Shown: positions 1,702-26,461 of the stretch, one piece after another
Position numbering within the stretch: position 1 is the first letter of the stretch
How the letters are laid out: every line of letters starts with the position of its first letter
DNA from: an uncultured Bacteroidales bacterium
Lineage (GTDB): Bacteria > Bacteroidota > Bacteroidia > Bacteroidales > Muribaculaceae
DNA length: 41,500 nucleotides
Assembly (NCBI GenBank): GCA_902772455.1
Contig: CACYAW010000057.1
Span: 1 to 41,500 of the forward strand
Direction of reading: 5' to 3'
Made by a program: the position numbers and the translations under genes
Notes under the pieces: model-generated
Databases searched by the model: none
What the model saw: only the letters and a program-made list of their open reading frames with translations
What the model was told of the DNA's origin: nothing

Positions 1702-1735
1702 CACCACGTCAAGCCATCGCAAGAGAAACATTTAT

Positions 1736-1765
1736 AGGGTCGCTCATCCAGACGGCCCTTTTTTA
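1736..1765 (+). terminator. Rho-independent terminator after typA
   Basis: A 7-bp stem (AGGGTCG with CGGCCCT, one G-T wobble) around a 10-nt loop is followed directly by a run of T residues. It separates typA from the downstream regulatory/NRPS operon. Confidence 0.8.
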
Positions 1766-1822
1766 TTTACAATGTATATTTTTTTAACCCCAAAACACAT
1801 TATATATTTTATCAAAAATTTA

Positions 1823-1830
1823 TACCTTTG
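1823..1830 (+). promoter_or_regulatory. Bacteroidetes -7 element (TACCTTTG) for the NRPS operon
   Basis: TACCTTTG matches the TAnnTTTG consensus of the primary Bacteroidetes sigma factor. It lies 52 nt before the preferred ATG at 1883. I do not see a clear TTTG -33 box at the usual 19-21 nt spacing; the region there is AT-rich. It is the only good promoter match I found between the typA terminator and the PPTase gene, so it probably drives the whole operon. Confidence 0.55.
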
Positions 1831-1882: not shown

Positions 1883-4096
1883 ATGACGTTCAAGCAACTG
1901 TTTAACAAATTCAATTGGAGCCATTACCGCAAGTCCATATCGGCCATTGCCCTCATCCTGCTTGCCGGTGCACTTATAGAACTCATTTCGCTTGCTCAGT
2001 ACAACTATGCCCACAACATGGTTGAGGAAGGCCTTGATAACCGCGCCGAGAACGAGATGACTTTGAAGGCAGTGGTTGTCAAGAGTATTCTCAAGTCCCA
2101 CAAGGAGATGGTGCGCAACTATCTATGGCCTATCCAACATCAGCTCAAGAATCCCGATGCCATTCCCCGCATCCTCAAACGACTTGTTACGTCCAATCAG
2201 GACGTGATGACTTGTTTTACGGCTTTTACTCCAGAGTATTATCCCAATCGTTCACGGCTGTTTGAGCCAGTGGCCATCCGTAGTGGTGACAGTGTCTATA
2301 CCAAGCAAGTTGCCAATGAGTTGCATGACTACACTCAACGCGAGTTTTACCAGCAAGCCGTCCTGAACAACACTCCCTCGTGGAGCGACCCCTATCTGGA
2401 TGTCGATGGTTGCGGCAAGGTCGTGACGACCTATGCCATGCCCCTCACCGACGAAAACGGCAAAACCGTTGGCACACTCGGTATCGACCTGTCGACCGAG
2501 GGCATCATCGACACCCTGAACACGAGACACAATTACCCATCCACCTTTTTCCTGCTACTCACCGAGGACGGGAAACTTATCTCCAAACCCGATACCAGCC
2601 ATACCCAACAAAGTGATGTGGACGCTGTTGTGGCAATGATAAACGACAGCACCTGCCTGCACGAGCCCAGCCGTTCGGGCCTCAGCAAGGTCGTCACGTT
2701 CAAAAGCAAAGAGAAGGGCACGGGATACGCATACCATGCCTTTATGAAAGGCCAGCCCCACTGGCAGGTGGTGATGGTGTGCTATGACGACGAGGTTTTC
2801 GGCAAACTCTATGATTTGCGCCGTAACATGCTGTTACTCATGCTCGGAGCTTTCACCCTGTTAGGGTTCATTCTGTACCGCGTCAACCAATACGTGAAAC
2901 GGTTGCATGAATCCAGACTGAACAAGGAGCGCACCGACAGTGAGTTACACATTGCCCAAAAGATTCAGAGCGAGATGCTACCCCAGACCGACATTACACG
3001 GCCCGACGTCGAGGTGAGCGGCAAACAAGTCTCGGCGCTGGAAGTGGGTGGCGATCTGTACGACTATTTCATCCGCGACGAGAAACTGTTCTTCTGCATT
3101 GGTGATGTGAGCGGCAAGGGCGTGCCGTCATCGCTGGTGATGGCGGTAGTGCATTCCCAGTTCCGCAGTTTGTCCCGGAACGAGAGCAATCCCTCGCGCA
3201 TCATGCATGCCATCAACGAGGCAGCTTGTGAAGGCAATGATGCCAATATGTTTGTCACCATGTTCATCGGTGTGCTGGACCTGCCCACGGGTCGCCTGCG
3301 CTACTGCAATGCCGGCCATGACGCACCGCTGATTATAGACCATGAGGTAAGAAACCTGAAAGTGAACGCCAACTTGCCATTGGGATTATTCAGCGACACC
3401 ACCTATCTCCTGCAAGAAGAGCAACTACCCCGTGAGTCGTCCTTGCTGCTCTATACCGACGGCTTGACCGAGATGGCTGACACTAACCGAAAACTTTATG
3501 GCTTGCAGCGCATCATTGAAACGGCTCAGACCAGCCTGGAACAAGGCAAGGTTTCCCCGTCACAGCTGATGGAATCCCAGCATGAAGGAGCCTTGCGCTT
3601 TGCCAACGGAGCACAGCAGAGCGATGACCTGACCATGCTTTGTGTCCATTACCACCAGCATGAAGAGCATACCGTGCTCGACGAGACGATTAAATTGAGT
3701 AATGATGTGCATCAAGTTCCTGAACTTAATAATTTCGTCAAATCGGTGTCTGAACGATTAAACCTTGAGTCATCTTTATCGTCACAACTGATGCTGGCTG
3801 TAGAGGAGGCCGTCGTAAACGTGATGAGCTATGCCTATCCCATTGGAACTCAAGGAGATGTCACCGTCACTGCCAAGGGTACCGATAATGGCATCAAGTT
3901 CATCATTATCGACCAGGGTAAGGCCTTTGACCCGACCATGAAGAGTGAAGCCGACACAACGCTCAGCGCCGAGGAGCGTCCCATCGGCGGCTTAGGCATC
4001 CTGCTCGTGCAGTCGCTGATGGACAGCGTCAACTATGAGCGCATCGACGGCAAAAACGTGCTCACGATTATGAAGAATTATAATAACAAACAATGA
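1883..4096 (+). CDS. Membrane Cache-sensor PP2C (SpoIIE/RsbU-type) phosphatase fused to an RsbW-like kinase domain
   Basis: The 737-residue protein is a two-in-one partner-switching regulator. A first membrane helix (about 19-40) and a second (about 315-338) flank a periplasmic dCache-like sensor with the typical WSDPYLDVDG and GKTVGTLGIDLS signatures. The cytoplasmic part has a SpoIIE-type PP2C domain with metal-binding acidic motifs GGDLYDYF (about 389), GDVSGKG, TDGLTE (about 526) and DDLTM (about 581). A GHKL/HATPase domain follows, with EEAVVNV (N box, about 641), DQGKAFDP and GGLGILLV. By family knowledge the phosphatase removes phosphate from a STAS protein and the kinase adds it or binds the STAS partner. 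A STAS gene follows 27 nt later. No sigma factor lies nearby, so the output target is unknown. An in-frame TTG at 1859 exists, but ATG 1883 is preferred. Confidence 0.88.
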   Translation: MTFKQLFNKFNWSHYRKSISAIALILLAGALIELISLAQYNYAHNMVEEGLDNRAENEMTLKAVVVKSILKSHKEMVRNYLWPIQHQLKNPDAIPRILKRLVTSNQDVMTCFTAFTPEYYPNRSRLFEPVAIRSGDSVYTKQVANELHDYTQREFYQQAVLNNTPSWSDPYLDVDGCGKVVTTYAMPLTDENGKTVGTLGIDLSTEGIIDTLNTRHNYPSTFFLLLTEDGKLISKPDTSHTQQSDVDAVVAMINDSTCLHEPSRSGLSKVVTFKSKEKGTGYAYHAFMKGQPHWQVVMVCYDDEVFGKLYDLRRNMLLLMLGAFTLLGFILYRVNQYVKRLHESRLNKERTDSELHIAQKIQSEMLPQTDITRPDVEVSGKQVSALEVGGDLYDYFIRDEKLFFCIGDVSGKGVPSSLVMAVVHSQFRSLSRNESNPSRIMHAINEAACEGNDANMFVTMFIGVLDLPTGRLRYCNAGHDAPLIIDHEVRNLKVNANLPLGLFSDTTYLLQEEQLPRESSLLLYTDGLTEMADTNRKLYGLQRIIETAQTSLEQGKVSPSQLMESQHEGALRFANGAQQSDDLTMLCVHYHQHEEHTVLDETIKLSNDVHQVPELNNFVKSVSERLNLESSLSSQLMLAVEEAVVNVMSYAYPIGTQGDVTVTAKGTDNGIKFIIIDQGKAFDPTMKSEADTTLSAEERPIGGLGILLVQSLMDSVNYERIDGKNVLTIMKNYNNKQ

Positions 4097-4123
4097 TATT
4101 AACCATTTAAAGCTATAAATAAA

Positions 4124-4426
4124 ATGAAAACTACAATTCAAGAATTAGACGAGAAAACGATTATCACGCTGATTGGCTCATTAGATACAGCTGCGGCGAT
4201 GGAGGCAGATGCAACGCTGAAGCCTATCACCGAATCGATCAACAAAGATGTGGTGTTTGAATGTAAAGAACTGGAGTACATCGCATCTAGCGGCCTGCGC
4301 ATCCTGCTCGACGTGCTCAAGAAGACCAAGGCCAAGGGCAAGACCGTCACGCTGCGCAACGTGAACGACGACATCAAGAACGTGTTTCAAATCACTGGGT
4401 TCATCAACTTGTTTGAATTTGAGTGA
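4124..4426 (+). CDS. STAS-domain anti-sigma-factor antagonist (RsbV/SpoIIAA-like)
   Basis: This 100-residue, single-domain STAS protein has the antagonist signature LEYIASSGLRILLDVLKK. The serine just before the glycine (Ser56) aligns with the phosphorylatable Ser58 of SpoIIAA. By family knowledge it cycles between phosphorylated (inactive) and dephosphorylated (partner-binding) forms. The upstream gene encodes both a candidate phosphatase and a candidate kinase domain for it, which makes the pair a compact partner switch. Its stop codon lies 14 nt before the preferred ATG of the barrel gene, and a possible GTG start of that gene overlaps it, so co-expression is likely. It is not long enough to be a transporter STAS tail. 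Confidence 0.88.
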   Translation: MKTTIQELDEKTIITLIGSLDTAAAMEADATLKPITESINKDVVFECKELEYIASSGLRILLDVLKKTKAKGKTVTLRNVNDDIKNVFQITGFINLFEFE

Positions 4427-4440
4427 AACTCTCCTGTAAC

Positions 4441-5793
4441 ATGATACACAACCAAATCAGGCGATGGCTGCTGGCAGTCATAGCCATGCCTGCGCTGCTG
4501 GCAACGGGCCAGCCCTCGACCGATACCATTCCCGTTCCCAAAAACGAGTTTAGCATTGACCTGCAGTTTCTGGGTCGCGGCGAGTCACGATATGGCGGCA
4601 TGCCGTCAGCACCCGTTGAGGATGAGGAAGAAGGTGAGAATGTTGAGGTTCCTAAGTCCAATTTCTTGCTCAGCCGCACACGCTTGCCCATCAACTTCAA
4701 ACGCGACTGGCTCGAAGCCCGCGTCACGCCTCAGCACTCTGGTGTGTGGGGACAGGCGGGCAAAGGAGGCTTCAACCTGCATGAAGCATGGGTGAAGATG
4801 GCCACATATTCCGGCATGTTTGCCCAAGTTGGTCGTGTGGCCCTGAACTATGATGACGAACGCATCATCGGCTCTGATGATTGGGCAATGGCTTCATCTT
4901 CCCACGACGTTTTGCGTCTGGGTTATGAAGGTCACGGCCACAAAGCCCATATCATTCTGGCCTATAACCAGAATGCCAATGTAATGGAAACTGGCGGCTC
5001 CTACTATGTTAACGGCGGTCAGCCCTACAAAACCATGCAAACGGCGTGGTACCACTATGACATGCCGCGTTTGCCGTTGGGAGCTTCACTGCTGTTCATG
5101 AACATCGGCATGCAGAGTGAGCTGAATGACAAGCTTGATAAGACCTGGTTCCAGCATTTGGCAGGTACCTATGTGTCATTCCAGCCCAAACACTGGAAGG
5201 CCGAGGCGTCATACTATAACCAGTTTGGCAAAAATGAGCATGGTGTCAAAATCCAGGCCTGGATGGCCAGTGGAAAAGTCACCTATATGCTGTCACCCAA
5301 GTTCAACTTTACTGCAGGCTATGACTACTTGAGCGGTGACAAATACTTTGCTGTTCCCACCGGGCACAACATTGGTATGGTACATCACGATGTCATTAGA
5401 GGCTTCAGCACAGTCTATGGTTCCCATCACAAGTTCTACGGCGCAATGGACTTCTTCTATGTGAGCGCCTATCATCACGGATTCACTCCTGGCTTGCAGA
5501 ATGCTTATTTAGGAGCCACTTACAGCCCATTGAAGAACTTGATGATCAATGGCAGTTATCACTACTTTGCTACAGCAACCGACCTTGATGACATGGACAA
5601 GACCCTCGGACACGAGATCGAATTCCAGACGGGCTATGCCATTAGCCGCGACGTGAGCGTCGCAGCAGGAGCATCATTCATGTGGGGCGGCGAAACGATG
5701 AAGCGTCTGAAACGCTCCAGCTCAAAGAACAGCCTGCGCTGGGGATACATCACGCTTGTCGTCAACCCGCGCATTTTTACAACCAAATGGTAG
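4441..5793 (+). CDS. Outer-membrane beta-barrel protein (alginate-export/porin-like)
   Basis: The 450-residue protein has a Sec signal peptide (IRRWLLAVIAMPALLATG, likely cut near residue 24). A barrel-like sequence of alternating aromatic and polar strands follows (for example FAQVGRVALNYDDERIIGSD and MLSPKFNFTAGYDYLSGDK), and the chain ends in an aromatic Trp, as outer-membrane barrels often do. It resembles the alginate-export/porin class known in Bacteroidetes, but I cannot name a substrate. A short acidic stretch after the first strand (EDEEEGENVE) probably lies in a loop or plug. It sits between the STAS gene and the NRPS gene with no terminator, so an outer-membrane channel for the NRPS product or its precursors is a reasonable inference. 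A GTG at 4423 is in frame; ATG 4441 gives the better signal peptide. Confidence 0.75.
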   Translation: MIHNQIRRWLLAVIAMPALLATGQPSTDTIPVPKNEFSIDLQFLGRGESRYGGMPSAPVEDEEEGENVEVPKSNFLLSRTRLPINFKRDWLEARVTPQHSGVWGQAGKGGFNLHEAWVKMATYSGMFAQVGRVALNYDDERIIGSDDWAMASSSHDVLRLGYEGHGHKAHIILAYNQNANVMETGGSYYVNGGQPYKTMQTAWYHYDMPRLPLGASLLFMNIGMQSELNDKLDKTWFQHLAGTYVSFQPKHWKAEASYYNQFGKNEHGVKIQAWMASGKVTYMLSPKFNFTAGYDYLSGDKYFAVPTGHNIGMVHHDVIRGFSTVYGSHHKFYGAMDFFYVSAYHHGFTPGLQNAYLGATYSPLKNLMINGSYHYFATATDLDDMDKTLGHEIEFQTGYAISRDVSVAAGASFMWGGETMKRLKRSSSKNSLRWGYITLVVNPRIFTTKW

Positions 5794-5795
5794 GC

Positions 5796-5830
5796 TAGTT
5801 TCTAGTCCTTAGTTTCTAGTTTCTAGCTTC
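5796..5830 (+). repeat. 7-nt tandem tract (five TAGTTTC-like units)
   Basis: The units are TAGTTTC, TAGTCCT, TAGTTTC, TAGTTTC and TAGCTTC, starting 2 nt after the stop codon of the barrel gene and ending 29 nt before the NRPS start. On the minus strand the unit reads as a CTAGAAA rotation, which resembles the tracts at 22859 and 39226. Confidence 0.8.
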
Positions 5831-5859
5831 AACGCCTAAAAACCAAAATTAACCAAAAT

Positions 5860-8800
5860 ATGAAACTTTCAGCACCCTTATCAACCTCCCAGTTCGGAAT
5901 CTATGTGGAATGTGCAAACCACCTGGGAGAGCCATGCTATAATCTGCCTTTCGTTTATGTGCTTGACCGTTCGCTGGATGGCCAACGACTGCTCGAGGCC
6001 GTTAAGACAGCCTTTAAGGCTCACCCCACACTGTTCACCCGCATCGAGTTGGGCGAAGACGGAGAGCCGATACAGACGCTCGACATGGACAATGAGCAAT
6101 GGTCGCCCAGCATTGAAGACATCCAGGACATCGAACAGGAAAAAGCTCAGTTCGTGGAGCCGTTCAACATCTACGGAGACCGACTGTTCCGTTTCAGGCT
6201 GTTGCGCGACAAGGATCATTATTATTTCATGGTCGATTATCACCACATCATCATGGACGGCGCATCGTTCCGGATTCTGATGCAAGAAATCGACAAGGCT
6301 TATCAAGGCGAGCCCCTTGCCCCCGAAGAGTTGACGATGATGGAAGTAGCCACCGACGAAGCAGCCAGACGCAAGACTCCCGCCTATGATGAAGCCAAGA
6401 AGTGGTTTGCCGCCAACTTTGACTGTGGCGACACCTTCACCCAGTTTGTGCCCGATCTGGAGGAGCCCGAGTATCGCGAGGGCCAGTTACTGCGCACCCT
6501 GTCGGTCGACCTGGGCCGCGTTGATGAATACTGCAAAAAGAACGGTGTGTTCAAGAGTACGCTGTTCACCACGGCCTATGCCTTCCTGCTGGCTAAGTTC
6601 AACAATGAGCAGGAGAGTCTGTTCAACACCATCTACAACGGCCGGACTGACAAACGCTTCAGCCGCTCGCTAGGCATGACGGTCAAGACCCTGCCCGTTT
6701 ATGCCAAGTTCACCAACGAAACCACCGTGCTGGAACTGCTGCAACAAGGACAGGAACAGATGGCAGGGTGCCGCGAGCACGATTCATACTCCTATGCCGA
6801 CTTGATGACAGACTTGAACCTGCAGAGCAACTCCATTTTTGCTTGGCACGGCAATGTGCTTGACGTCCAGATGATAGACGGCAAGCCTGTGGAGATGATC
6901 AGAATTGCCAACAACACGCTTGAAGAATCGTTCTACCTGAAAGCCTTCATTAACGACGGCAAGGTAGAAATTGAAGCCGAATATAAAGCCAACGAATACT
7001 CGCAAGAGCTCGTTGCCCAGATTTTAGAGAGCTATGAGGCCGTGCTCGAGGGCTTCATCACCCAGGAATACCTGCGCGACATCGACATTGCCACAGCCGA
7101 CCAGGTGGCAACCCTCGACAGCTTTAATCCTGGAGAACTGGAGTATGATGACAGCCAGACCATCGTCTCGTTGTTCCGCCAGCAGGTCAAGGCCACGCCC
7201 GACGCAACAGCCGTCGTATATATGGACAAGCAGTTCACCTATGCCCAGGTTGATGAAATCAGCGACCGCATTGCCGCCTATATCGTCGGCAAGGGCCTGG
7301 GTGCCGAGGACGTGGTATCTGTCATCATTCCCCGCTGCGAGTGGATGCCTATCGCCTCGATGGGAGCGCTCAAGGCCGGTTGCGGCTATCAGCCGCTCGA
7401 CCCGAGTTATCCCAAGGAGCGCCTGAACTTCATGATGCAGGATGCCAATGCCAAACTGCTGATTGCCGACGAGGAACTGCGTCCCATCGTTGACGAGTAC
7501 CAGGGCGAGGTGCTGCTGACCAAGGACATCATGGGCCTGCCCGCTGCCGCAGCGCCCCAGGTGGACATCAAGCCCGACCAGCTGTTTATCCTGCTTTATA
7601 CGTCGGGTTCGACAGGTGTGCCCAAGGGCTGCCAGCTTATCCACGCCAATCTTGTGGCCTTCTGCCACTGGTACCATCAGATGTTTGACCTCAAGGCAGG
7701 TTGCAAGGTAGCTGCCTATGCCAGCTACGGCTTTGACGCCAACATGATGGACACGTACCCCGCGCTCACCAGCGGAGCAACCGTCTATATCGTTCCTGAG
7801 GAATTGCGTCTGGACCTTATCGCCCTCAACGAGTATTTTGAGCAGAACGGCATCACCCACTCGTTCATGACTACGCAGGTGTGCTACCAGTTTGCGACAA
7901 GTGTCGAGAACCACTCCTTGCATTATCTCTCGACCGGCGGCGAGAAACTGGCATCGATAACGCCCCCGCAGGGCATCAAGTTCTTCAACCTCTACGGTCC
8001 CACCGAGTCAACGGTATTCATCACCTATTATCTGGTGGACAAGAAAATGAAGGAGATTCCCATCGGCAAAGCGCCGAAGAACATACGCCTGTATATCGTC
8101 GATCCGCAGGGACACCGCCTGCCCGTGGGTGCGGCCGGCGAATTGTGGGTAGCAGGCTCCCAGGTGAGCCGCGGTTACCTGAACCGCCCCGAGAAGACTG
8201 CCGAAGTCTTTATTCCCAACCCGTTCACCAGTGAGGAAAAATACAACCGCGTTTATCGCACGGGCGACATCGTCCGTTACTTGCCGTCGGGCGACATCCA
8301 GTTTGTGGGACGCCGTGACGGCCAAGTCAAGATTCGCGGTTTCCGCATCGAGCTCAAGGAGGTCGAGAGCGTTATCCGCGAGTTCCCCGGCATCAAGGAC
8401 GCTACGGTACAGGCCTTTGATGACGAGGGCGGCGGCAAGTTCATCGCTGCCTATATCGTGAGCGATGAAACCATCGACATCGATGCATTGAACAACTTTA
8501 TCATGGACCAAAAGCCGCCTTACATGGTGCCTGCCGTGACCATGCAGATCGACGCCATCCCCTTGAACCAGAACCAGAAGGTGAACAAGCGCGCCCTGCC
8601 CAAGCCCGAAAAGAAGGCTGCTGCCATCGAAGAGAGCAACGTGCCCATGAACGTGCTGGAGCAGGAACTGCACCAGATTGTCGCCGACATCGTCAACAAC
8701 AAGGAATTCGGGGTGACAACCATACTGGGTTATGCCGGACTGACCTCCATCTCGGCCATCAAACTGGCCGTTCAGGTCAACAAACGCTTTGGCGTGACGC

Positions 8801-11800
8801 TCGACTCCAAGAGTCTGGTGAAAACCGGCACTATCCAGTCGATAGAGAACGACATCCTGAGAATGTGGCTCGAGGGCGGCAGCAAACCCGCCGAAGAGAC
8901 CGCTCAAGAAAAAGATACTGCGGCAAAGACCAGCGCACCGCTGTCCTATGCCCAAACAGGTGTCTATTTCGATTGCCTGAAGAATCCCGCTTCGACCATC
9001 TACAATATTCCCTATCTGCTCACCTATCCCGAAGGGACCGACGCCAACCACCTGGCCGACGTCGTGAAGCGCGTGATTGAGGCACATCCCGAACTCAGCG
9101 TCCACTTCACGACTGAGGGCGACACCATCATCCAGACAACAGATGACAGCGTTCCCGTCGAGGTGAACATCACCGAGATGAGCGAAGAGGAACTGGCGAA
9201 ATACAAGAGGGAGTTTGTGCGTCCCTTCAATCTGCAGAAGGCCCCGCTGTACCGCGCCGAAATCGTTAAGACAGCCACAGGACTTCACCTGCTGCTGGAT
9301 ATGCACCACCTGGTATTTGACGGCGGCTCGGCCGATCTGTTCATTCGCCAGCTCAATGCCGCCCTCGAGGGCAAGGCAGTGGAGAATGAATCCTATACCT
9401 ATCTGGACTTCGTCGGCGACCAGAAGGCCGCTGAGGAAACTGACGAATTCAAGGCCTCACAGCAGTTCTTTGCCGAACGGCTGCAGACCTGTGAGGGCGC
9501 CAGCGAGATTCCCGCCGACCTGCCCAAGACCGACGAGCAAGGCTTCATCGGCGAGGCAGTCTGCCCCGTGGACCTTGAACGTGCCGCCGACTTCTGCCGC
9601 CAGGAGGAAATCACGCCAGCCCACCTGTTCCTGGGAGCAACTGCCTATGTGGTATCACGCTACACCAACAACCGCGACGTCTATCTGTGTACCGTGAGCA
9701 GCGGCCGCAGTAACCTCAAGATTGCCGACACGGTGGGTATGTTTGTCAACACGCTCGCCCTGGGCATGAGCATCGACGATGTGACGGTGAGCGAATTCCT
9801 GAAACATGCCAGCGACACGTTTGACCAGACGCTGCGCCACGAGGACTACCCCTTTGCCCGCATCGCAACGGACTATGGTTTCCGTCCCGCGATAGCCTAC
9901 GCTTATCAAGTGGGCGTACTCTCGCAATATACCGTGAACGATAAGCCCATCGGTCAGGAATTGCTGGAATTGAATGTACCCAAGTTCAAAATCAACGTCA
10001 AGATCGAAAACGGCGGCGTTGTCGTCGAGTATGACGACTCGATTTACAGCGAGCGCGTGGGCCGTGGCCTGGCCGAGAGCATCGTGGCCGTGGCCAACAG
10101 GATGATGGAGCAGCCGCAGGCCAAACTGCGCCAGTTGTCGATCGTGAGCGAGAACCAGGAAGAGGAACTGAGCCACCTGCGCCAGACGGCGACGGGTGAT
10201 GCGCCGTTCACCTTCTTCCACGAGTGCATCGGCCACTTTGCCCAAACACAGCCCGACCACGAGGCGCTGGTTGCCATCGACGGCAGGTTCACCTATAAGG
10301 AGATGGACGAAGTGACGACACGCATTGCCGCCGCACTGCAGAACCGTGGCGTGCATGAACGCGACCGCGTGGCCCTGCTGCTGCCGAGGACGAGCCGACT
10401 GATTCTCGCCCTGTTCGGCGTGCTCAAGTCGGGTGCCGCCTATATCCCCTGCGACCCCGAATATCCCGCCGACCGCGTGAAACTCATTCTTGAGGACAGC
10501 GAGGCCCGCTACATCATCACCACCGCCGACCGCATGGACAGCGTACCCGCCGACAAGGCCATCAATGTTGAGGACCTGATTGCCGCCCATGACGACTATC
10601 ACGCTCCCGACATCACCCCCAATGACCTGGCCTACCTGATTTATACCAGCGGTTCGACCGGCCGTCCCAAGGGCGTGATGCTGCATCACCGCGGCATCTG
10701 CAACTACCTGTACGGCCATCCCGCCAATGTGTTTGCCAACGGTGTGTTGACCGATGCCAAGCGCATCATGAGCGTGACGACCATCTCGTTTGACGCTGCC
10801 CTGCAGGACATCGGCACGGCCTACTTCAACGGCAAGACGCTCGTCGTCGCCACCGAGGAACAGGCCAACAACCCGCTCGACCTGGCCCGCCTCATCAACG
10901 AGGAGCACGTCAACATGGTGTCGGGCACCCCGTCGCGCTGGATGACCTGGCTGACGAGCGAGGACTTCTGTGACGCCATCAGCCACATCAACATCGTGCG
11001 CGCCGGCGGCGAGAAATTCTCGGACCAGTTGCTGCAACAGCTGCGCAAGGTGACCAAGGCCCGCATCTTCAACTGCTACGGTCCCACCGAAATCACCGTG
11101 GCATCGAATAACAGCGAATTGACCCACGCCGACATCGTCACCGTGGGCAAGCCGCAGTTGAACGTCATCGAGTATATCGTGGACCAGGACGGCAACGAGC
11201 TGCCCGTGGGCGTCGTGGGCGAACTGTACATCGGCGGCCGCGGCGTGGCCCATGGCTACAACAACCTGGACGAGATGACCCGTGAGCGCTTCGTCGACTA
11301 CCACGGCACCCGCATCTACAAGTCGGGCGACTATGCCAAGTGGCTCCCCGACGGCAATGTCGTGATCTTGGGCCGTACCGACCACCAGATCAAGCTGCGC
11401 GGCCTGCGCATCGAACTGGGCGAGATCGAGAACGTGATGCTCAAGGTCGAGGGGCTGAAGAAGGTGGTTATCCTGATCCGCAAGATCAATGACAAAGAGC
11501 ACCTGTGTGCCTACTATACCGCCGACCATGAGATTGCACCCGATGCACTCAAGGCCGAGATTTCCAAGAGCCTGACGCAATACATGGTGCCCACCGCCTA
11601 CCTGCAGCTCAAGGAGATGCCCATGACGCCCAACGGCAAGACCGACGTCAAGGCCCTGCCCGAGCCCGAATTGGCCATCAGTTCGGCCTATGTGGAGCCC
11701 GCCAACGACACCGAGCGCACCTTCTGCGACATCTTTGCAGGCATCCTGCAGATGGACAAGGTGGGCGCGACCGACAACTTCTTTGAGCTGGGCGGTACCT

Positions 11801-13113
11801 CGCTGGTTGTGACGCGCGTCATCATCGAGGCCGACAAACAAGGGCTGCATGTTGCCTATGGTGACGTGTTTGCCAACCCGACGCCCCGCAAGCTGGCCCG
11901 CCTGATTACCGGCGAAGCCGTCAACGAGGGCGATGCCGAGATCACCGGATTTGACTACACCGCCATCAACAACCTGTTGCAGAGGAACACGTTGAACGTC
12001 TTCCGCAAGGGCGAGCGCCAGCAGTTGGGCAATGTGCTGCTGACAGGTGCCACGGGCTACCTGGGCATCCACATCCTGCGCGAGCTCATCGACTCGGATG
12101 CCGAGAATATCTACTGTCTGGTGCGCGGCAAGGATGAGGAGTCTGCAGCCAACCGTCTGCGCACCCTGCTGTTCTACTACTTCTCGGATGCCTTCAAGGA
12201 CTTGTTCGGCAAGCGCCTGCACATCGTGCTGGGTGACGTGACGAGCGACTTTGCCGAGGGCCTGCAGGTTGACACCATCTTCAACTGCGCGGCCATCGTC
12301 AAGCACTTCAGCGAGGGCACCGAAATCGAGGACGTGAACATTGGCGGCGCACAGCGTTGCGTGGACTACTGCGTCAAGACGGGCGCCAAGCTCGTGCATG
12401 TGTCCACAGCGAGCACACGCGGTCTGTGGGCCGGTGAGATCAAGAGCGAGATCTTTACCGAGCAGCGCCTGTACATGGGCCAGTTCCTGGGCAACAAGTA
12501 CATCTACTCCAAGTTCATGGCCGAGCGCCTGATACTCAACGCTGTAGCCCTGCACGGCCTCAACGCCAAAATCATGCGTGTGGGCAACCTGGCCGCCCGC
12601 TCGACCGACGGCGAGTTCCAGGCCAACTTCGCGACCAACTCGTTTATGGGCCGCATCAAGGTCTATAACATGCTGGGCTGCTGCCCCTACAGCATGCGCA
12701 ACCAACAGGTGGAATTCTCGCCCATCAACGAGGTGGCCCGCGCCATCGTGCTGCTGAGCTCCACTCCCAAGGAGTGCACCGTGTTCCACCCCTATAACAT
12801 CCACGGCCAGTTCCTGGGCGACGTGCTCATGGGACTTGACACCGTCGGCAACGGTGTGCGCTTTGTTGAGCAGGAAGAGTTTGAGGCAGCCATGGAGGAA
12901 GCCAAGAGCGACCCGCAGAAGGCACGCCAGATGTCGTCGCTGCTGGCCTATCAGGACATGGCCCACGGCCAAAAGACCGCCGACGTGAAACGCGACAACA
13001 ACTACACGACCCAAGTGCTCTACCGCTTGGGCTTTGCGTGGTCGCCCACGTCATGGGACTATGTGGAGCGCATGCTCACCGCCATCGGCACACTCGGATT
13101 CTTTGACATGTAA
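5860..13113 (+). CDS. Dimodular non-ribosomal peptide synthetase, C-A-T-C-A-T-R
   Basis: The 2417-residue protein is a complete two-module line. C1 (about 1-435) has HHIIMDG at 128. A1 (about 440-930) has YTSGSTGVPKG at 580 and YGPTE at 712. T1 has its phosphopantetheine Ser at about 963 (GLTSISAIKL). C2 (about 1026-1440) has HHLVFDG at 1149. A2 (about 1450-1910) has YTSGSTGRPKG at 1595 and YGPTE at 1740. T2 has Ser 1981 (FELGGTSL). The terminal thioester reductase has GATGYLG at 2063, Thr 2183 and YIYSK (Tyr 2214, Lys 2218). All core motifs are intact. A leading C domain suggests N-acylation of residue 1, as in ruminopeptin- and fellutamide-type lines. The R domain predicts NAD(P)H release as an aldehyde (or alcohol; a free amine would cyclise to a pyrazinone). 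Hand-aligned codes are D-A-M-F-S-G-L-V-F-K (A1, hydrophobic-looking) and D-A-Q-S-V-A-C-V-A-K (A2, unassigned). Confidence 0.95.
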   Translation: MKLSAPLSTSQFGIYVECANHLGEPCYNLPFVYVLDRSLDGQRLLEAVKTAFKAHPTLFTRIELGEDGEPIQTLDMDNEQWSPSIEDIQDIEQEKAQFVEPFNIYGDRLFRFRLLRDKDHYYFMVDYHHIIMDGASFRILMQEIDKAYQGEPLAPEELTMMEVATDEAARRKTPAYDEAKKWFAANFDCGDTFTQFVPDLEEPEYREGQLLRTLSVDLGRVDEYCKKNGVFKSTLFTTAYAFLLAKFNNEQESLFNTIYNGRTDKRFSRSLGMTVKTLPVYAKFTNETTVLELLQQGQEQMAGCREHDSYSYADLMTDLNLQSNSIFAWHGNVLDVQMIDGKPVEMIRIANNTLEESFYLKAFINDGKVEIEAEYKANEYSQELVAQILESYEAVLEGFITQEYLRDIDIATADQVATLDSFNPGELEYDDSQTIVSLFRQQVKATPDATAVVYMDKQFTYAQVDEISDRIAAYIVGKGLGAEDVVSVIIPRCEWMPIASMGALKAGCGYQPLDPSYPKERLNFMMQDANAKLLIADEELRPIVDEYQGEVLLTKDIMGLPAAAAPQVDIKPDQLFILLYTSGSTGVPKGCQLIHANLVAFCHWYHQMFDLKAGCKVAAYASYGFDANMMDTYPALTSGATVYIVPEELRLDLIALNEYFEQNGITHSFMTTQVCYQFATSVENHSLHYLSTGGEKLASITPPQGIKFFNLYGPTESTVFITYYLVDKKMKEIPIGKAPKNIRLYIVDPQGHRLPVGAAGELWVAGSQVSRGYLNRPEKTAEVFIPNPFTSEEKYNRVYRTGDIVRYLPSGDIQFVGRRDGQVKIRGFRIELKEVESVIREFPGIKDATVQAFDDEGGGKFIAAYIVSDETIDIDALNNFIMDQKPPYMVPAVTMQIDAIPLNQNQKVNKRALPKPEKKAAAIEESNVPMNVLEQELHQIVADIVNNKEFGVTTILGYAGLTSISAIKLAVQVNKRFGVTLDSKSLVKTGTIQSIENDILRMWLEGGSKPAEETAQEKDTAAKTSAPLSYAQTGVYFDCLKNPASTIYNIPYLLTYPEGTDANHLADVVKRVIEAHPELSVHFTTEGDTIIQTTDDSVPVEVNITEMSEEELAKYKREFVRPFNLQKAPLYRAEIVKTATGLHLLLDMHHLVFDGGSADLFIRQLNAALEGKAVENESYTYLDFVGDQKAAEETDEFKASQQFFAERLQTCEGASEIPADLPKTDEQGFIGEAVCPVDLERAADFCRQEEITPAHLFLGATAYVVSRYTNNRDVYLCTVSSGRSNLKIADTVGMFVNTLALGMSIDDVTVSEFLKHASDTFDQTLRHEDYPFARIATDYGFRPAIAYAYQVGVLSQYTVNDKPIGQELLELNVPKFKINVKIENGGVVVEYDDSIYSERVGRGLAESIVAVANRMMEQPQAKLRQLSIVSENQEEELSHLRQTATGDAPFTFFHECIGHFAQTQPDHEALVAIDGRFTYKEMDEVTTRIAAALQNRGVHERDRVALLLPRTSRLILALFGVLKSGAAYIPCDPEYPADRVKLILEDSEARYIITTADRMDSVPADKAINVEDLIAAHDDYHAPDITPNDLAYLIYTSGSTGRPKGVMLHHRGICNYLYGHPANVFANGVLTDAKRIMSVTTISFDAALQDIGTAYFNGKTLVVATEEQANNPLDLARLINEEHVNMVSGTPSRWMTWLTSEDFCDAISHINIVRAGGEKFSDQLLQQLRKVTKARIFNCYGPTEITVASNNSELTHADIVTVGKPQLNVIEYIVDQDGNELPVGVVGELYIGGRGVAHGYNNLDEMTRERFVDYHGTRIYKSGDYAKWLPDGNVVILGRTDHQIKLRGLRIELGEIENVMLKVEGLKKVVILIRKINDKEHLCAYYTADHEIAPDALKAEISKSLTQYMVPTAYLQLKEMPMTPNGKTDVKALPEPELAISSAYVEPANDTERTFCDIFAGILQMDKVGATDNFFELGGTSLVVTRVIIEADKQGLHVAYGDVFANPTPRKLARLITGEAVNEGDAEITGFDYTAINNLLQRNTLNVFRKGERQQLGNVLLTGATGYLGIHILRELIDSDAENIYCLVRGKDEESAANRLRTLLFYYFSDAFKDLFGKRLHIVLGDVTSDFAEGLQVDTIFNCAAIVKHFSEGTEIEDVNIGGAQRCVDYCVKTGAKLVHVSTASTRGLWAGEIKSEIFTEQRLYMGQFLGNKYIYSKFMAERLILNAVALHGLNAKIMRVGNLAARSTDGEFQANFATNSFMGRIKVYNMLGCCPYSMRNQQVEFSPINEVARAIVLLSSTPKECTVFHPYNIHGQFLGDVLMGLDTVGNGVRFVEQEEFEAAMEEAKSDPQKARQMSSLLAYQDMAHGQKTADVKRDNNYTTQVLYRLGFAWSPTSWDYVERMLTAIGTLGFFDM

Positions 13114-13119
13114 TTGACA

Positions 13120-14451
13120 ATGAAACTGCAAGAGCAAGACAACGTCAACGCCCAGTTTTACCGTTATCTGTGGGCCTATATCCTGGTAGCCCTCTCGGGC
13201 TGCCTGGGTACCGTGGTGGACGGTATCATCGTGGGCAATCTCATCAGCGAGGACGGCGTGAGCGCCATCAACCTGTCCACGCCCATCACCCAGTTTATCT
13301 TCACCCTGCACCTGCTCATCAATGCGGGTGCAGGTATGCTGGTGGCTTATGCCCTGGGGCAGAAGAAGACAGATGACGCCCGGCGATTCTTCACCCGCTC
13401 GCTGTCGCTGACCGTGGGGCTGGGTCTGGTGCTGGCTATTGTCGGCGGCCTGATATTCCCGCAGCAGACGGCAAGGATGCTGTGCGATAATGAGCAGATT
13501 CTGCCGCTGGCCCGCAACTACATGCAGGTGCTGCTCATCGGCTGCCCGGTCTTCATTCTCATGTGGGGCCTCTCGACCATGGTGGGTGTTGACGGCAGTC
13601 CGCGGCTGGTGTCGCTAGCGGTGATCGTCGACAATGCCGTGAACCTGTTTCTGGACATCGTCTTCATCCAGTGGTTTGGCTGGGGCATCACGGGTTCGTC
13701 GGCTGCGACTGTCGTGGGACATCTGGTGGGTATCGCCATCCTGCTCTCCCACTGGCGCAAGCCCGAGAACCGCCGTCTTATTCCCGTATTCACTACCGAT
13801 GGGCTGGCTGCTTCCTGGAAACGCATCATCTCGCAGGGAGCGCCGCTGGCTGTGGCCTCGATCTGCCTGACGCTGCTCCTGTTCAGCGCCAACCGCATCG
13901 TGCTGTCCACAACGGGCCGCACGGGTATCTTTGTGTTTGCCCTGTGCATGAACCTCTTGCAGATCTATAACCTGTTCCTGTCGGGCACGTGCCAGACGCT
14001 GCAGTCGCTGGGGGCCATTCAGGTGGGCAAGGAAGACAATCAGGGCGTGCGCACCGTCATCAGGAAAGGTTTCCGCTTCATTTCCTTGGCCATGGCAGTG
14101 ACCTGCCTGCTCGTGTGGATTTACCCGCAGGGCATCGCACGGCTGTTTGGCTGCGACGAGCCCGAAATGCTGGCCCAGAGCAACCAGGCGCTGCGTGTGT
14201 TCGCGTTGAGCTTCATCCCCTTCTGCTACATTTATGTGCTGATGATTGTCTATAAGCTCTATAGCCACCATCACATGGCACTGTTCATCTCATTTGCCTT
14301 GTCGCTCACGGTCATCCCAGTGTTGTGGCTCATGGCGCGGATACTGCCCGAATACATCTGGCACAGCTACCTCATCGCATACGCGATTGAGGCCATAGCC
14401 ATCTATGTCATGCACAAGTCGCTGCACCTGCGCTTTGAGTTGAAACAGTGA
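13120..14451 (+). CDS. MATE-family efflux transporter
   Basis: The 443-residue inner-membrane protein has about 12 hydrophobic segments in the two-bundle MATE arrangement. Family-typical features are TVVDGIIVGNLISEDGVSAINLSTPI in the first bundle and GAPLAVASICLTLLLFSANRIVL at the start of the second. MATE proteins export small organic molecules using Na+ or H+ gradients. The gene starts 6 nt after the NRPS stop and overlaps the PPTase start, so it is almost certainly co-transcribed and is the natural candidate to export the NRPS product or protect the producer. ATG 13120 is chosen; the TTG at 13114 in the same frame adds only two residues. Confidence 0.88.
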   Translation: MKLQEQDNVNAQFYRYLWAYILVALSGCLGTVVDGIIVGNLISEDGVSAINLSTPITQFIFTLHLLINAGAGMLVAYALGQKKTDDARRFFTRSLSLTVGLGLVLAIVGGLIFPQQTARMLCDNEQILPLARNYMQVLLIGCPVFILMWGLSTMVGVDGSPRLVSLAVIVDNAVNLFLDIVFIQWFGWGITGSSAATVVGHLVGIAILLSHWRKPENRRLIPVFTTDGLAASWKRIISQGAPLAVASICLTLLLFSANRIVLSTTGRTGIFVFALCMNLLQIYNLFLSGTCQTLQSLGAIQVGKEDNQGVRTVIRKGFRFISLAMAVTCLLVWIYPQGIARLFGCDEPEMLAQSNQALRVFALSFIPFCYIYVLMIVYKLYSHHHMALFISFALSLTVIPVLWLMARILPEYIWHSYLIAYAIEAIAIYVMHKSLHLRFELKQ

Positions 14452-15014
14452 TCTATATCGACGACCATATCGACGATTTTGACCTGCGGGAGGCACTGGC
14501 GGCAGTGAGTCCCCAGCGGCGTGACTATGCCCTGCGCTACCGCCAGGAGCGTGACCAGCGCCTGTGCCTGGCCGCCTATCGCCTGCTGCAACGCGCCTTG
14601 ATGCAGGAATACGGCATCGACGGGATGCCCGTCTTCGCCTACGACGACAAGGGAAAGCCGCTGCTGCAGGGTCATCCCGATATCCACTTCAGCCTGAGCC
14701 ACTGCCACGAGGCAGTGGCCGTGGCCCTGAGTGACCATCCCGTCGGCATCGACATCGAGACCACCGGGCATTACAGCGTCGAGGTCGCCCGCCGTGTGAT
14801 GAATGATGACGAAATGCGTGAAATCGTGGCCTCGGTGCAGCCCGAGGTCGCCTTCACCCGCCTGTGGACCATGAAGGAGAGCCTTTACAAACTCACGGGC
14901 GACGATCATGACGGCGATATCGCCCAAATGCTCGACAAAGCCCCGCGCTACCGCTTCGCCACTACCGTCCACCCCAGTTACCTCTGCACCGTTTGTTCGC
15001 CCAGGCAATCATAA
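14448..15014 (+). CDS. 4'-phosphopantetheinyl transferase (Sfp-type)
   Basis: The 188-residue enzyme transfers 4'-phosphopantetheine from CoA to carrier-protein serines. It carries the family signatures FSLSHCHEAVAVALSDHPVGIDIE (about 78-101) and FTRLWTMKESLYKLTG (about 137-152). These hold the Mg2+-binding Asp and Glu and the W-x-x-K-E-S/A-x-x-K motif. The GTG start overlaps the MATE stop by 4 nt, indicating translational coupling. As the last gene of the NRPS operon, its obvious targets are Ser963 and Ser1981 of the synthetase. An additional role in activating the fatty-acid acyl carrier protein cannot be excluded. Confidence 0.92.
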   Translation: MIYIDDHIDDFDLREALAAVSPQRRDYALRYRQERDQRLCLAAYRLLQRALMQEYGIDGMPVFAYDDKGKPLLQGHPDIHFSLSHCHEAVAVALSDHPVGIDIETTGHYSVEVARRVMNDDEMREIVASVQPEVAFTRLWTMKESLYKLTGDDHDGDIAQMLDKAPRYRFATTVHPSYLCTVCSPRQS

Positions 15015-15047
15015 GCATAATCAAATAAATAGGGATTATTTTAGCGT

Positions 15048-15075
15048 CTCCGCACCAGAGTTGCGGGGATTTTTT
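15048..15075 (+). terminator. Rho-independent terminator of the NRPS operon
   Basis: A 7-bp hairpin (CTCCGCA with TGCGGGG, one wobble; 7-nt loop) is followed by ATTTTTT. It lies 33 nt after the PPTase stop and marks the 3' end of the regulator/NRPS operon. Confidence 0.82.
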
Positions 15076-15076
15076 G

Positions 15077-15084
15077 TAACTTTG
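15077..15084 (+). promoter_or_regulatory. Probable -7 element (TAACTTTG) for glnS
   Basis: TAACTTTG matches TAnnTTTG and lies 41 nt before the glnS ATG, right after the terminator T-run. No clear -33 TTTG is visible at standard spacing. Confidence 0.55.
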
Positions 15085-15125: not shown

Positions 15126-15929
15126 ATGGCGGAGAATATTGAGAATATCAACGCTGGGGCCGAGGAGAAGAAGCCCTTGAATTTTGTACAGCAGTTTGTC
15201 GCCGAAGACCTGGCGGCCGGTAAGAACGGAGGACGCTTGAACACGCGTTTCCCGCCAGAGCCCAACGGCTATCTGCACATCGGCCATGCCAAGGCCATCT
15301 GCATGGACTTCGGCGTAGCCGAGAAATTTGGCGGAACATGTAACCTGCGCTTCGACGACACCAACCCGCAAAAGGAGGACACCGAGTATGTCGAGGCTAT
15401 CATGCGCGACATCCACTGGCTGGGCTATGACTGGGGCGACCGTCTGTACTATGCCAGCGACTACTTCCCCAAACTGTACGATTTCGCCATCCGCCTGATT
15501 AAGGAGGGCAAGGCATACGTCGATGACCAGACCAGTGAGCAGATTGCCCAGCAGAAGGGCACGCCCACCACACCCGGCACCAACAGCCCCTACCGCGACC
15601 GCAGCGTCGAGGAGAACCTGGACCTGTTTGAGCGCATGAATGCGGGCGAGTTTGAGGAGGGCAGCCATGTGCTGCGCGCCAAGATTGACATGGCGTCGAG
15701 CAACATGCACTTCCGCGACCCCATCATCTACCGCATCATCAAGACGCCGCACTGGCGCACGGGCAACAAGTGGAACGTTTATCCCATGTATGACTTTGCC
15801 CACGGTCAGAGCGACTACTTTGAGGGTGTGACCCACTCGATCTGCACGCTGGAGTTTGTGCCCCACCGTGACCTGTACGACTACTTCGTGCACGAGTTGG
15901 CCGGTGAGAGCGCCAGCGAGTACTGCTGA
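15126..15929 (+). CDS. glnS: Glutaminyl-tRNA synthetase, N-terminal fragment (reading frame broken)
   Basis: This 267-residue fragment is the first half of a class I GlnRS, which charges tRNA-Gln with glutamine. It holds [18 protein letters not shown] (HIGH at 51-54), the FDDTNPQKE motif, and [16 protein letters not shown]. The match to Bacteroidetes GlnRS runs to [19 protein letters not shown] and then hits TGA. In the family a segment of about 14-16 residues (a Q-Y-E-F-A-R-L-N-L-type stretch) should follow, leading into the MSKRK loop. That segment is missing here, and the rest of the protein continues in another frame. A deletion of about 40-45 nt is the simplest reading. The stop and the next ATG overlap as TGATG, which could permit re-initiation, but the missing piece belongs to the catalytic domain. 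Confidence 0.85.
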
Positions 15930-16804
15930 TGAGCAAGCGCAAACTGCTGCAGCTCGTCAAGGAAGGTCTCGTGGCAGGCTGGGACGATCCCCGCATGCCG
16001 ACGCTGTGCGGCCTGCGCCGCCGCGGCTACACCGCCCAGAGCATCAAGAACTTCATCGAGGACATCGGCTATACCAAGTATGAGGCGCTGAACGACATCG
16101 GCCTGCTGGAGCACAATATCCGCGAGGAACTCAACCATCACGCCAACCGCGTGAGCGCCGTGCTCAACCCCGTCAAGGTGGTCATCACCAACTACCCCGA
16201 GGACAAGGTGGAGATGATGGAGATGGACAATAACCCCGAGCAGGAGAATGCCGGCAAGCACCAGATGCCGTTCTCGCGCGAGATCTATATCGAGCGTGAC
16301 GACTTTATGGAAGAGCCTCCCAAGAAGTTCTTCCGCCTCACGCCGGGCAAGGAAGTGCGCCTGAAGGGAGCCTACATCGTCATGTGCACCGGCTGCACCA
16401 AGGATGCCGACGGCAACGTGACCGAAATCCAGTGCACCTATGACCCCGACACGCTGAGCGGCAGCGCCGGCAGTCAGCGCAAGGTGAAAGGTACCCTGCA
16501 CTGGGTGAGCGCCCGCCACTGCGTCGATGCCGAGGTAAGGCTGTATGACCGCCTGTTTGCTGTGGAGAACCCGAGTGCCGACACCGAGCACGACTTCCGC
16601 GAGCTGCTGAATCCCGACTCGCTGCGCGTCATCAACGATGCCAAGATTGAGCCGTTCCTGGCCGAGACCGCCAAGGTGGGCGACACGTTCCAGTTCCAGC
16701 GCATCGGCTACTTCACTGTCGATCAGGACTCGACCGAGGGTCACCTCGTGTTCAACCGCACCATCGGGCTGAAAGACAGCTGGGCCAAACAGCAGACCAA
16801 GTAA
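15929..16804 (+). CDS. glnS: Glutaminyl-tRNA synthetase, C-terminal fragment
   Basis: This 291-residue fragment begins at the KMSKS-equivalent loop ([13 protein letters not shown]). It continues through GWDDPRMPTLCGLRRRGYT, which binds the tRNA acceptor end, and the two anticodon-binding beta-barrel domains (VSAVLNPVKVVITNYPE, KVKGTLHWVSARHCVDAEVRLYDRLF, LVFNRTIGLKDSW). It is in a different frame from the upstream half and overlaps its stop by one base (TGATG). On its own it lacks the HIGH motif and ATP site, so it can only act with the N-terminal half. Because charged Gln-tRNA is essential, either the sequence has an error, the two halves assemble, or a GatCAB route exists elsewhere. Confidence 0.85.
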   Translation: MSKRKLLQLVKEGLVAGWDDPRMPTLCGLRRRGYTAQSIKNFIEDIGYTKYEALNDIGLLEHNIREELNHHANRVSAVLNPVKVVITNYPEDKVEMMEMDNNPEQENAGKHQMPFSREIYIERDDFMEEPPKKFFRLTPGKEVRLKGAYIVMCTGCTKDADGNVTEIQCTYDPDTLSGSAGSQRKVKGTLHWVSARHCVDAEVRLYDRLFAVENPSADTEHDFRELLNPDSLRVINDAKIEPFLAETAKVGDTFQFQRIGYFTVDQDSTEGHLVFNRTIGLKDSWAKQQTK

Positions 16805-26239: not shown

Positions 26240-26284
26240 AAATGTATAAATGTAACTAATTAAATGATTATCTCAAAAAACGTG

Positions 26285-26316
26285 CAAATTTACAACGCCA
26301 CGCTATATTTTCCAAA
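26285..26316 (-). promoter_or_regulatory. Promoter of C10 copy 1
   Basis: On the minus strand, TTTG (26316-26313) and TAAATTTG (26292-26285) are separated by exactly 20 nt. A conserved leader motif (GATAATCATTTAAT, 26272-26259) begins 12 nt after the -7 box. Confidence 0.82.
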
Positions 26317-26421
26317 TTTTTTCTTGCACTTTCACCAAAAAGCTCTCATTTTTCCATCAACACGTTTTTTATTCTGCTCAATCAGGGATAAAAAAACCAC
26401 AAACAATAGTAATAAAATTCT

Positions 26422-26461
26422 AAGCGGGACACCTCCATGCAAAATGGAAGATGTCCCGCTT
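26422..26461 (-). terminator. Terminator of C10 copy 2 (shared GCGGGACA hairpin)
   Basis: A perfect 10-bp stem AAGCGGGACA / TGTCCCGCTT with a further inner CCAT/ATGG pairing lies about 65 nt downstream of the copy 2 stop and is followed on the minus strand by a T-rich stretch. Related hairpins lie at 30192 and 33810. Confidence 0.7.

Follow-up and report, generated by a model that had tools for sequence, protein, structure and literature searches.

The window analysed here is a stretch of 41,500 nt on a contig from a Muribaculaceae genome that is 87 percent complete, and the locus in question occupies positions 1883..15014 of it. It comprises six genes, referred to below as SPO (a membrane sensor joined to a phosphatase and an RsbW-like HATPase), STAS (an RsbV/SpoIIAA-type protein), OMP (an outer-membrane β-barrel), NRPS (a nonribosomal peptide synthetase), MATE (an exporter) and PPTase (a phosphopantetheinyl transferase). 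We find that this gene set is a conserved, co-inherited unit. On the evidence below it is reasonably likely that the unit serves the synthesis, export and regulation of a small peptide released in reduced form, most probably an N-acyl dipeptide aldehyde, and that a non-sigma partner switch governs it.

Conservation of the gene set

Three sets of genomes were searched for the NRPS: 101 from the genus, 347 from the family, among which 59 gave a match at E <= 1e-250, and 393 from the order, among which five matched, the window's own genome included. Wide flanks were fetched for chosen loci (29 named, 60, then 20 and 15 more). Gene order was read in 99 loci, 95 of them distinct; only exact duplicates were removed, so that one species may count twice. 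The 29 named relatives are all uncultured or metagenome-assembled, and their records place them in Muribaculaceae, Prevotellaceae, Bacteroidaceae, Prevotella or Bacteroidales; the genus may be Sodaliphilus of GTDB. A ruminant host is recorded for nine, and 17 more carry RUG names, RUG denoting a rumen origin.

An earlier interpretation of this DNA, the sequence-only reading, had proposed that gene order around homologous NRPSs would reveal a conserved block. Such a block exists: the order of the window recurs in 32 of the 95 distinct loci, and in four more with one gene inserted between NRPS and MATE. Elsewhere the order is shuffled, and includes STAS-OMP-MATE-SPO-NRPS, OMP-SPO-STAS-NRPS-MATE, OMP-NRPS-MATE-SPO-STAS, SPO-OMP-NRPS-MATE-PPT-STAS and MATE-NRPS-SPO-STAS-PPT. 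Gene content that is kept while order is shuffled is better evidence of a working unit than a frozen order.

Gene presence was counted in the 72 loci with enough flank, that is, a near-full NRPS with at least 4 kb before it and at least 2.5 kb after it. STAS is present in 67 of these (directly before the NRPS in 17 of the 67), SPO in 63, MATE in 61, OMP in 50 and PPTase in 48. NRPS loci without the switch, which the sequence-only reading had named as evidence against a unit, are few. Five of the 72 have neither STAS nor SPO: two (L144 and L145, where L denotes a locus) belong to other families and have a remote NRPS, at about 30 percent, SPO is 52 kb off in L062 and on another contig in L103, and the fifth is L054. 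In L090, L093, L095 and L097, STAS stands beside the NRPS and SPO is elsewhere in the genome. A chance association is excluded, since so many genomes conserve the gene set.

The flanking genes, typA upstream and glnS downstream, are on the same strand as the unit (Pfam). Of 15 genomes that lack the unit's NRPS, 11 showed both genes, which are far apart on one contig in one of them (G004, where G denotes a genome) and on different contigs in the other ten, and no empty site was readable. In the window, glnS (15126-16804) is broken into two frames, and a relative (L039, 21665-21860) has 43 extra bases there; the break in this essential gene probably stems from faulty assembly or sequencing. Carriage on plasmids was considered and rejected: there was no close NRPS among 72,556 plasmids, all 326 matching records being below 60 percent identity.

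Co-occurrence of switch and synthetase

Among the 101 genus genomes, 82 have both SPO and NRPS, nine have SPO only, none has NRPS only, and ten have neither (Fisher p 5e-9, uncorrected for kinship). Reductive NRPSs were scored present down to about 39 percent identity; in the 19 genomes scored as lacking the NRPS, a separate NRPS of ~1440 aa and one 353-aa edge fragment were counted as absence. The pattern fits an NRPS that depends on the switch and a switch that is able to do without the NRPS. The sequence-only reading needs correcting here, in that nine of the 101 genomes have the switch without such an NRPS.

In four of the nine genomes with SPO only (L122, L123, L124 and L130), NRPS and MATE are gone while SPO, OMP and PPTase are kept. 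OMP and PPTase are separated by 17 nt in L122, 53 nt in L124 and 48 nt in L130, and in L123 one open reading frame (ORF) fuses NRPS residues 1-52 to MATE residues 255-445. A STAS gene was called at three of these loci, and at L123 the corresponding stretch aligns as DNA. The other five genomes have OMP-SPO away from any such NRPS, with STAS called in four. Single NRPS-less loci may reflect assembly errors.

Outside the genus, 11 genomes of the family sample have the NRPS. A sensor-covering SPO match (E <= 1e-70) was found in six family genomes, all six with the NRPS, and the remaining five NRPS-bearing genomes have a more divergent SPO at the locus (L071, L078-L081).

The synthetase and its product

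The NRPS has the domain order C-A-T-C-A-T-R (condensation, adenylation, carrier and terminal reductase domains) within a single protein, with HHxxxDG motifs at 6241 and 9304, carrier serine motifs at 8740 and 11788, and a reductase YxxxK at 12499, which places it among the reductase-ending dipeptide NRPSs. The domains, the motifs and the conserved loci bear out the earlier suggestion that the NRPS ends in a reductase and comes with a PPTase and a MATE of its own. The roles attributed here and below to the catalytic motifs of NRPS, phosphatase, kinase and STAS are those generally known for the families.

Adenylation codes were read by motif position, placed by the PheA numbering, in 94 NRPS rows that include exact duplicates. 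The codes in the window are DAMFSGLVF for the first domain (A1) and DAQSVACVA for the second (A2). The A1 code starts with DAMFSG in 72 of the 94 rows and with DAxF in 88, down to 37 percent identity. A2 reads DAQS[VCA]ACVA in 67 rows, the rest showing several other codes, so that the switch accompanies a class of reductive NRPSs and not a single product. Judged by the codes, A1 probably loads an aliphatic and A2 an aromatic residue. The first condensation domain (C1) probably adds an acyl cap to the first residue; the PaaK-like ligase found in nine relatives (see below) is at most suggestive of an acyl-capping C1. We infer that the product in the window would be an acyl-aliphatic-aromatic aldehyde. 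Gut bacteria produce dipeptide aldehydes that act as inhibitors of cathepsins and proteasomes (PMC8518294), and the product here is most likely an inhibitor of cysteine, serine or proteasome-type proteases.

Longer NRPSs of 2977-3012 aa share the same switch in L065, L066, L068-L070 and L143; that of L068 has an extra A-T unit at its N-terminus. The separate NRPS of ~1440 aa, with a related reductase at its end, occurs in at least 13 of the 101 genus genomes, and in the two such loci read (L146, L147) neither SPO nor STAS adjoins it.

The switch and its output

All three parts of an RsbU-RsbV-RsbW switch are present, as the sequence-only reading had it: a PP2C phosphatase, an RsbW-like kinase, and a STAS protein with conserved serine. 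The sensor of SPO matches Pfam MCP-like_PDC_1 with 63.6 bits (cut-off 27) and dCache_1 with 40.2, below its cut-off of 45, and is followed by SpoIIE and HATPase_c_2 domains. Residues D399, D416, D534, D589 and D590 of the phosphatase and E649, N654, D685, G687, G710, G711 and G713 of the HATPase are invariant in 21 of 21 aligned sequences (numbered from the TTG at 1859), and match the acidic residues expected to bind metal in the phosphatase and, in the kinase-like domain, the N, G1 and G2 boxes. In STAS, Ser55 and Ser56 are invariant in all 15 aligned sequences, down to 46 percent identity. The structure model of SPO has a pLDDT (predicted local distance difference test) of 80.8 and a pTM (predicted template modelling score) of 0.50.

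Three genomes (G000:C27, locus L138; G057:C14, L139; G061:C40, L140) encode a further SPO-like protein, which is longer (~800 aa) and has a protein of ~398 aa after it. In L138, which is from the window's own genome, the ~398-aa protein is a STAS domain fused to an APH-like phosphotransferase and there is no NRPS in the stretch read; this is a different switch.

Co-variation was measured on pairwise distances among the 36 loci that have all six genes by tblastn over 70 percent of length. SPO and STAS co-vary with r 0.78 after removal of the NRPS distance and 0.69 after removal of the PPTase distance too, as is expected of an enzyme and its protein substrate. With typA as the yardstick (13 loci only), r is 0.76 for SPO and NRPS and 0.73 for OMP and NRPS.

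A sigma-B-type output was judged unlikely, because the genome, as far as it is complete, holds no SigB/F/G-family sigma factor over the curated cut-off; the best match (120.3 against 234.35 bits) is probably the main sigma factor. It is nevertheless a serious possibility, to which we give somewhat less than even weight, that the switch controls transcription of the unit through an unlinked factor, be it the main sigma factor, an ECF-type sigma factor or another regulator, leaving the exporter untouched. This would be the classical role of the three switch domains; the genome has, besides the RpoD-like match of 120 bits, six ORFs of 165-197 aa with weak matches, possibly ECF sigma factors, and MATE and STAS show no co-variation within the genus. 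Set against it are the missing SigB/F/G sigma factor, the lack of a sigma factor among the six genes (sigma genes being scanned at the window locus only), and the HATPase that is fused to the exporter in 11 loci, which transcriptional control would have to treat as a side branch.

These 11 loci are distant relatives (NRPS identity <=53 percent; four were scanned with Pfam), in which MATE is 574-608 aa long and ends in an RsbW-like HATPase that, by alignment, keeps the N-box Glu and Asn and the DxG box. Both SPO and MATE carry a HATPase in seven of them (L068-L070, L079-L081, L143). In L076, SPO ends after the phosphatase, and no HATPase other than that of the pump was found in the stretch; L073 and L075 have no SPO in the stretch, and in L071 SPO is incomplete at the stretch edge. 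L072 and L074, which are outside the 11, have an SPO without HATPase and no pump in the stretch read. The fusions are the strongest hint as to the target of the switch, and point to the exporter or to a membrane complex around it.

We considered whether the fusion is a general Bacteroidales pump and rejected this, as the full-fusion matches all lie at NRPS loci: at E <= 1e-40 the order, sampled with 295 genomes, gave one (G651), and at E <= 1e-80 the family, sampled with 297, gave two (G302 and the query's own G283). These cut-offs are strict and leave fusions elsewhere possible.

A more specific proposal is that the partner switch gates the metabolite exporter, STAS binding to an RsbW-like domain on or beside MATE and so coupling peptide release to the periplasmic signal, which is perhaps the peptide itself. 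The 11 fusions, together with the locus that has the kinase-like domain on the pump alone, would be the physical trace of such gating, and we put it forward tentatively, as a doubtful but specific idea. Co-variation was also used to look for STAS touching the unfused MATE directly in window-type loci; it was absent in all three settings (r 0.02, 0.11, 0.01), which speaks against such contact.

One reason for the weak co-variation of MATE is exchange. In nine loci the gene that immediately follows the NRPS encodes a PaaK/F390-synthetase-like ligase, which scores below every curated cut-off; in seven of the nine it stands between NRPS and MATE. On a tree of 58 MATE rows, built without 13 MATE ORFs whose length or score disqualified them (the 11 fusions and the L123 remnant were among these), the ligase occurs in seven of the 12 loci of lineage II and in none of the 46 of lineage I. 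The NRPS tree has 57 rows and includes 11 of the 12 lineage-II loci, which are scattered over it: eight changes are needed, at least seven of them forced by starred branches, compared with 10.2 on average when labels are shuffled (25 of 500 shuffles were as low as eight). For example, L034, with ligase and lineage-II MATE, is placed on this tree next to L058, with lineage-I MATE and no ligase. Five lineage-II loci are without the ligase, so that the bond between ligase and MATE is one-sided. Since ligase and MATE are swapped jointly under a standing NRPS, MATE probably exports the product; a joint swap is what would be expected if the ligase alters the product, probably in its cap, and MATE carries that product.

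The barrel and the sensing module

OMP was modelled with AlphaFold2 (pLDDT 70.6, 22 sequences). It has no sequence match in PDB, and the best Foldseek match of the model is AlgE (3rbh_A; E 5.6e-16, TM score 0.59, root-mean-square deviation 7.1, 13 percent identity). With both the Alginate_exp profile and an AlgE-like barrel fold, OMP belongs to the AlgE family.

The barrel had been regarded as dedicated to export of the product. OMP does accompany the NRPS in most loci with enough flank, but it was not found in most of the distant NRPS loci (in L071 and L072 the barrel is from a different family, OMP_b-brl_3), and it stays by the sensor: OMP is beside SPO in 16 of the 17 fetched loci in which SPO and NRPS are apart or the NRPS is lost (L122-L137, L155). 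The exception is L134, where SPO is near a contig end and no OMP was found; in L133 the SPO frame is hidden by a longer opposite ORF and its position was taken from the SPO genome match. No OMP lies beside the divergent SPO genes fetched without an NRPS (L138-L141, L151-L153). The persistence of OMP with SPO where the NRPS is distant or lost means that the barrel belongs at least equally to the sensing module. Export of the product across the outer membrane through the barrel is possible, but the closest ally of the barrel is the sensor.

These observations raise the question of whether SPO, STAS and OMP might be an independent envelope or nutrient sensing module with an AlgE-like porin, merely adjoining an NRPS-MATE-PPTase cluster. 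The association of OMP with SPO away from the NRPS would agree with this, as would the NRPS-less genomes, four with OMP-SPO-STAS alone, a fifth with OMP-SPO at a contig end, and four more in which SPO, OMP and PPTase remain. We nevertheless consider it unlikely, given that none of the 82 NRPS-bearing genomes is without an SPO match, that outside the genus sensor-covering SPO matches in the family sample occur only in NRPS-bearing genomes, and that STAS lies within 67 of the 72 NRPS loci and in 17 of these directly before the NRPS.

Proposed mechanism

We propose that the unit makes and releases its peptide under its own switch as follows. PPTase would arm the two carrier domains, C1 would cap the first residue with an acyl group, A1 and A2 would load an aliphatic and an aromatic residue, and the reductase would release the aldehyde, which MATE would carry over the inner membrane. 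SPO would read a periplasmic signal that sets the balance of its own RsbW-like kinase against its PP2C phosphatase; Ser55 or Ser56 of STAS would be phosphorylated or not according to this balance, and STAS would then switch partners. The output of the switch would be a component of its own system, either the exporter or the surrounding membrane complex, rather than a sigma-B-type sigma factor, and the AlgE-like barrel would serve as an outer-membrane gate working with the sensor and switch module.

Several observations weigh against this proposal. Many loci have no OMP or no PPTase nearby, and the switch is kept without the NRPS in nine of the 101 genus genomes. In five of the 82 genomes that have both, the SPO match covers the catalytic part only (G003, G005, G040, G041, G044), and in another of the 82, G062, it is of paralogue type; outside the genus, four family genomes match the catalytic part of SPO only, and three of these have no NRPS. 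The co-occurrence tests take no account of phylogeny. SPO and PPTase co-vary given the NRPS distance (r 0.62), which implies that shared descent plays a part, and SPO-STAS co-variation drops to 0.24 given the typA distance (13 loci). MATE and STAS do not co-vary in any of the three settings, and SPO-MATE co-variation is weak and uneven (0.07; 0.20, p 0.03; and 0.41, p 0.008, 13 loci). An internal hairpin and promoter-like boxes, described below, leave room for a second transcript. What the analysis shows directly is the gene content and its conservation, the catalytic motifs, the co-occurrence, the fusions and the joint exchange of ligase and MATE; the substrates, product, signal, phosphorylation and STAS target are inferred.

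That the peptide serves the physiology of the producer, for example by restraining its own many C10 cysteine proteases, and not outside targets is quite improbable: the same genome has 33 C10-peptidase matches, including four in the window that lie 9-22 kb downstream, and dipeptide aldehydes inhibit cathepsins and proteasomes, as noted above, but the unit has a dedicated exporter and the four C10 enzymes in the window already carry I69 inhibitor-type pro-domains. The four genes (streptopain-like) lie at 24002-37283 on the - strand, and some have Ig-like and dockerin tails.

Features and transcription signals

The coordinates are listed in Table 1. The picture of six closely spaced genes on one strand between two terminators is upheld by the ORFs, by Pfam and by both hairpins, which fold better than shuffled sequences. 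In gene order, the junctions are a 27 nt gap, a 4 nt overlap, a 66 nt gap, 0 nt and a 4 nt overlap. The SPO ORF opens at a TTG at 1859, and the ATG used here matches the start in many relatives.

Table 1. Features of the locus in window coordinates.
Feature	Position	Strand	Basis
Terminator of upstream typA	1733..1768	+	RNA fold -11.7 kcal/mol, z -3.5 vs shuffles, then T-run; absent from simple terminator scan
Bacteroidetes-type -7 box TANNTTTG heading the unit	1823..1830	+	Box match
SPO: membrane sensor (dCache-like), SpoIIE/PP2C phosphatase and RsbW-like HATPase, 737 aa	1883..4096	+	Pfam
STAS: RsbV/SpoIIAA-type anti-sigma-antagonist-like protein, 100 aa	4124..4426	+	Pfam STAS 53.7 bits; TIGR00377 over cut-off
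OMP: AlgE-like outer-membrane β-barrel, 456 aa	4423..5793	+	Pfam Alginate_exp 46.8 bits, cut-off 25.2
NRPS: C-A-T-C-A-T-R, 2417 aa	5860..13113	+	Pfam and NCBIfam: 2 Condensation, 2 AMP-binding, 2 PP-binding, NAD_binding_4 (reductase)
MATE: MATE-family exporter, 445 aa	13114..14451	+	Pfam MatE 110.9 bits
PPTase: Sfp/AusB-like, 188 aa	14448..15014	+	Pfam ACPS; best NCBIfam match AusB, under its cut-off
Terminator ending the unit	15044..15077	+	RNA fold -12.9 kcal/mol, z -2.4 vs shuffles, T-run; also in simple scan

The promoter proposed for the head of the unit stands in altered form. An E. coli-type scan, its total at chance (11 vs 8.6), gave no + strand match there, but a Bacteroidetes-type box that matches the consensus of that group is present. 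A box of this kind occurs within 150 nt upstream of 39 of 96 SPO ORFs, compared with 13/72 for STAS, 12/72 for OMP, 9/98 for NRPS, 7/70 for MATE, 9/44 for PPTase and 314/7440 for random stretches.

Internal promoters or terminators, which the sequence-only reading had counted against a single operon, are seen in weak form. The TANNTTTG-type box is found inside genes of the unit at 3247, 9738 and 13926. The simple terminator scan, its total at chance (16 found vs 14.5 expected), gave a weak site at 5793-5807 in the gap between OMP and NRPS; this gap folds (5785-5830, z -2.7) into a hairpin formed by CTAGTTTCTAG-type repeats, so that partial attenuation is possible there.

Comparison with known systems

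Ruminopeptin-type clusters are reportedly two-module lines that end in a reductase. The NRPSs of ruminopeptin (Ruminococcus bromii) and of the Clostridium cluster BGC0001686 are likewise from the gut, and their products are described as N-acyl dipeptide aldehydes (PMC12327764; PMC8518294). Those systems belong to Firmicutes, whereas the present one is from Bacteroidales and has a partner switch, an AlgE-like barrel and an exchangeable MATE and ligase; the likeness is drawn from descriptions and not from sequence. The best NCBIfam matches of our NRPS and PPTase are AusA and AusB of aureusimine synthesis in Staphylococcus, but their equivalog cut-offs are missed (1161 vs 2500 bits and 57.1 vs 225 bits, respectively). 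AusA starts with an A domain, not a C domain, and leads to pyrazinones. OMP shares the Alginate_exp profile and the fold of AlgE, but the unit has no alginate gene among its six.

Bifunctional switches of a similar kind include HsbR-HsbA of Pseudomonas, and indigoidine is a further metabolite made by an NRPS. In Vibrio fischeri, SypE joins an RsbW-like kinase to a PP2C phosphatase and has a single STAS protein, SypA, as its target, much as SPO and STAS would here; its output is described as post-transcriptional, by a route that is not known (PMC12826045). SypE takes its input through a REC domain and governs biofilm, whereas SPO has a periplasmic dCache-like sensor and no REC match and stands beside an NRPS. 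The same paper describes TciR of Vogesella indigofera, reported in 2025, a REC-RsbW response regulator of indigoidine and so another RsbW-like domain linked to an NRPS product; its genome is said to have no RsbV homologue (PMC12826045), whereas STAS is present here.

A survey of rumen clusters lists 934 NRPS clusters in Bacteroidaceae, and no such unit is named in the part of it that was available (PMC8241843). In a search of mostly open-access papers, the original ruminopeptin and aldehyde papers lying outside it, we found no unit of SpoIIE/STAS switch and NRPS in Bacteroidales; nor, among mostly open-access papers, did we find an RsbW-like domain fused to a MATE pump at NRPS loci. Dipeptide-aldehyde NRPS products, bifunctional kinase-phosphatase/STAS switches and an RsbW-like indigoidine regulator were already known. 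What is new, as far as these searches go, is the joint unit, the MATE-HATPase fusions, the joint exchange of ligase and MATE, the co-variation of SPO and STAS, and the losses of NRPS and MATE that keep the sensor, the barrel and PPTase.

Implications

If the proposal is correct, a common small-molecule pathway, found with the same or a related NRPS in 82 of the 101 sampled congeneric genomes, is under the control of a phospho-switch with a readable sensor, and the target of this switch would be a new class of output for partner switching. If the switch does gate the exporter, the genomes that kept sensor and barrel after the loss of NRPS and pump would be listeners that have given up making the peptide. 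The natural deletions of NRPS and MATE, the exporter swaps and the kinase-pump fusions allow production, release and listening to be separated by genome comparison. The likely products are protease inhibitors, and could matter for protein breakdown in the rumen.

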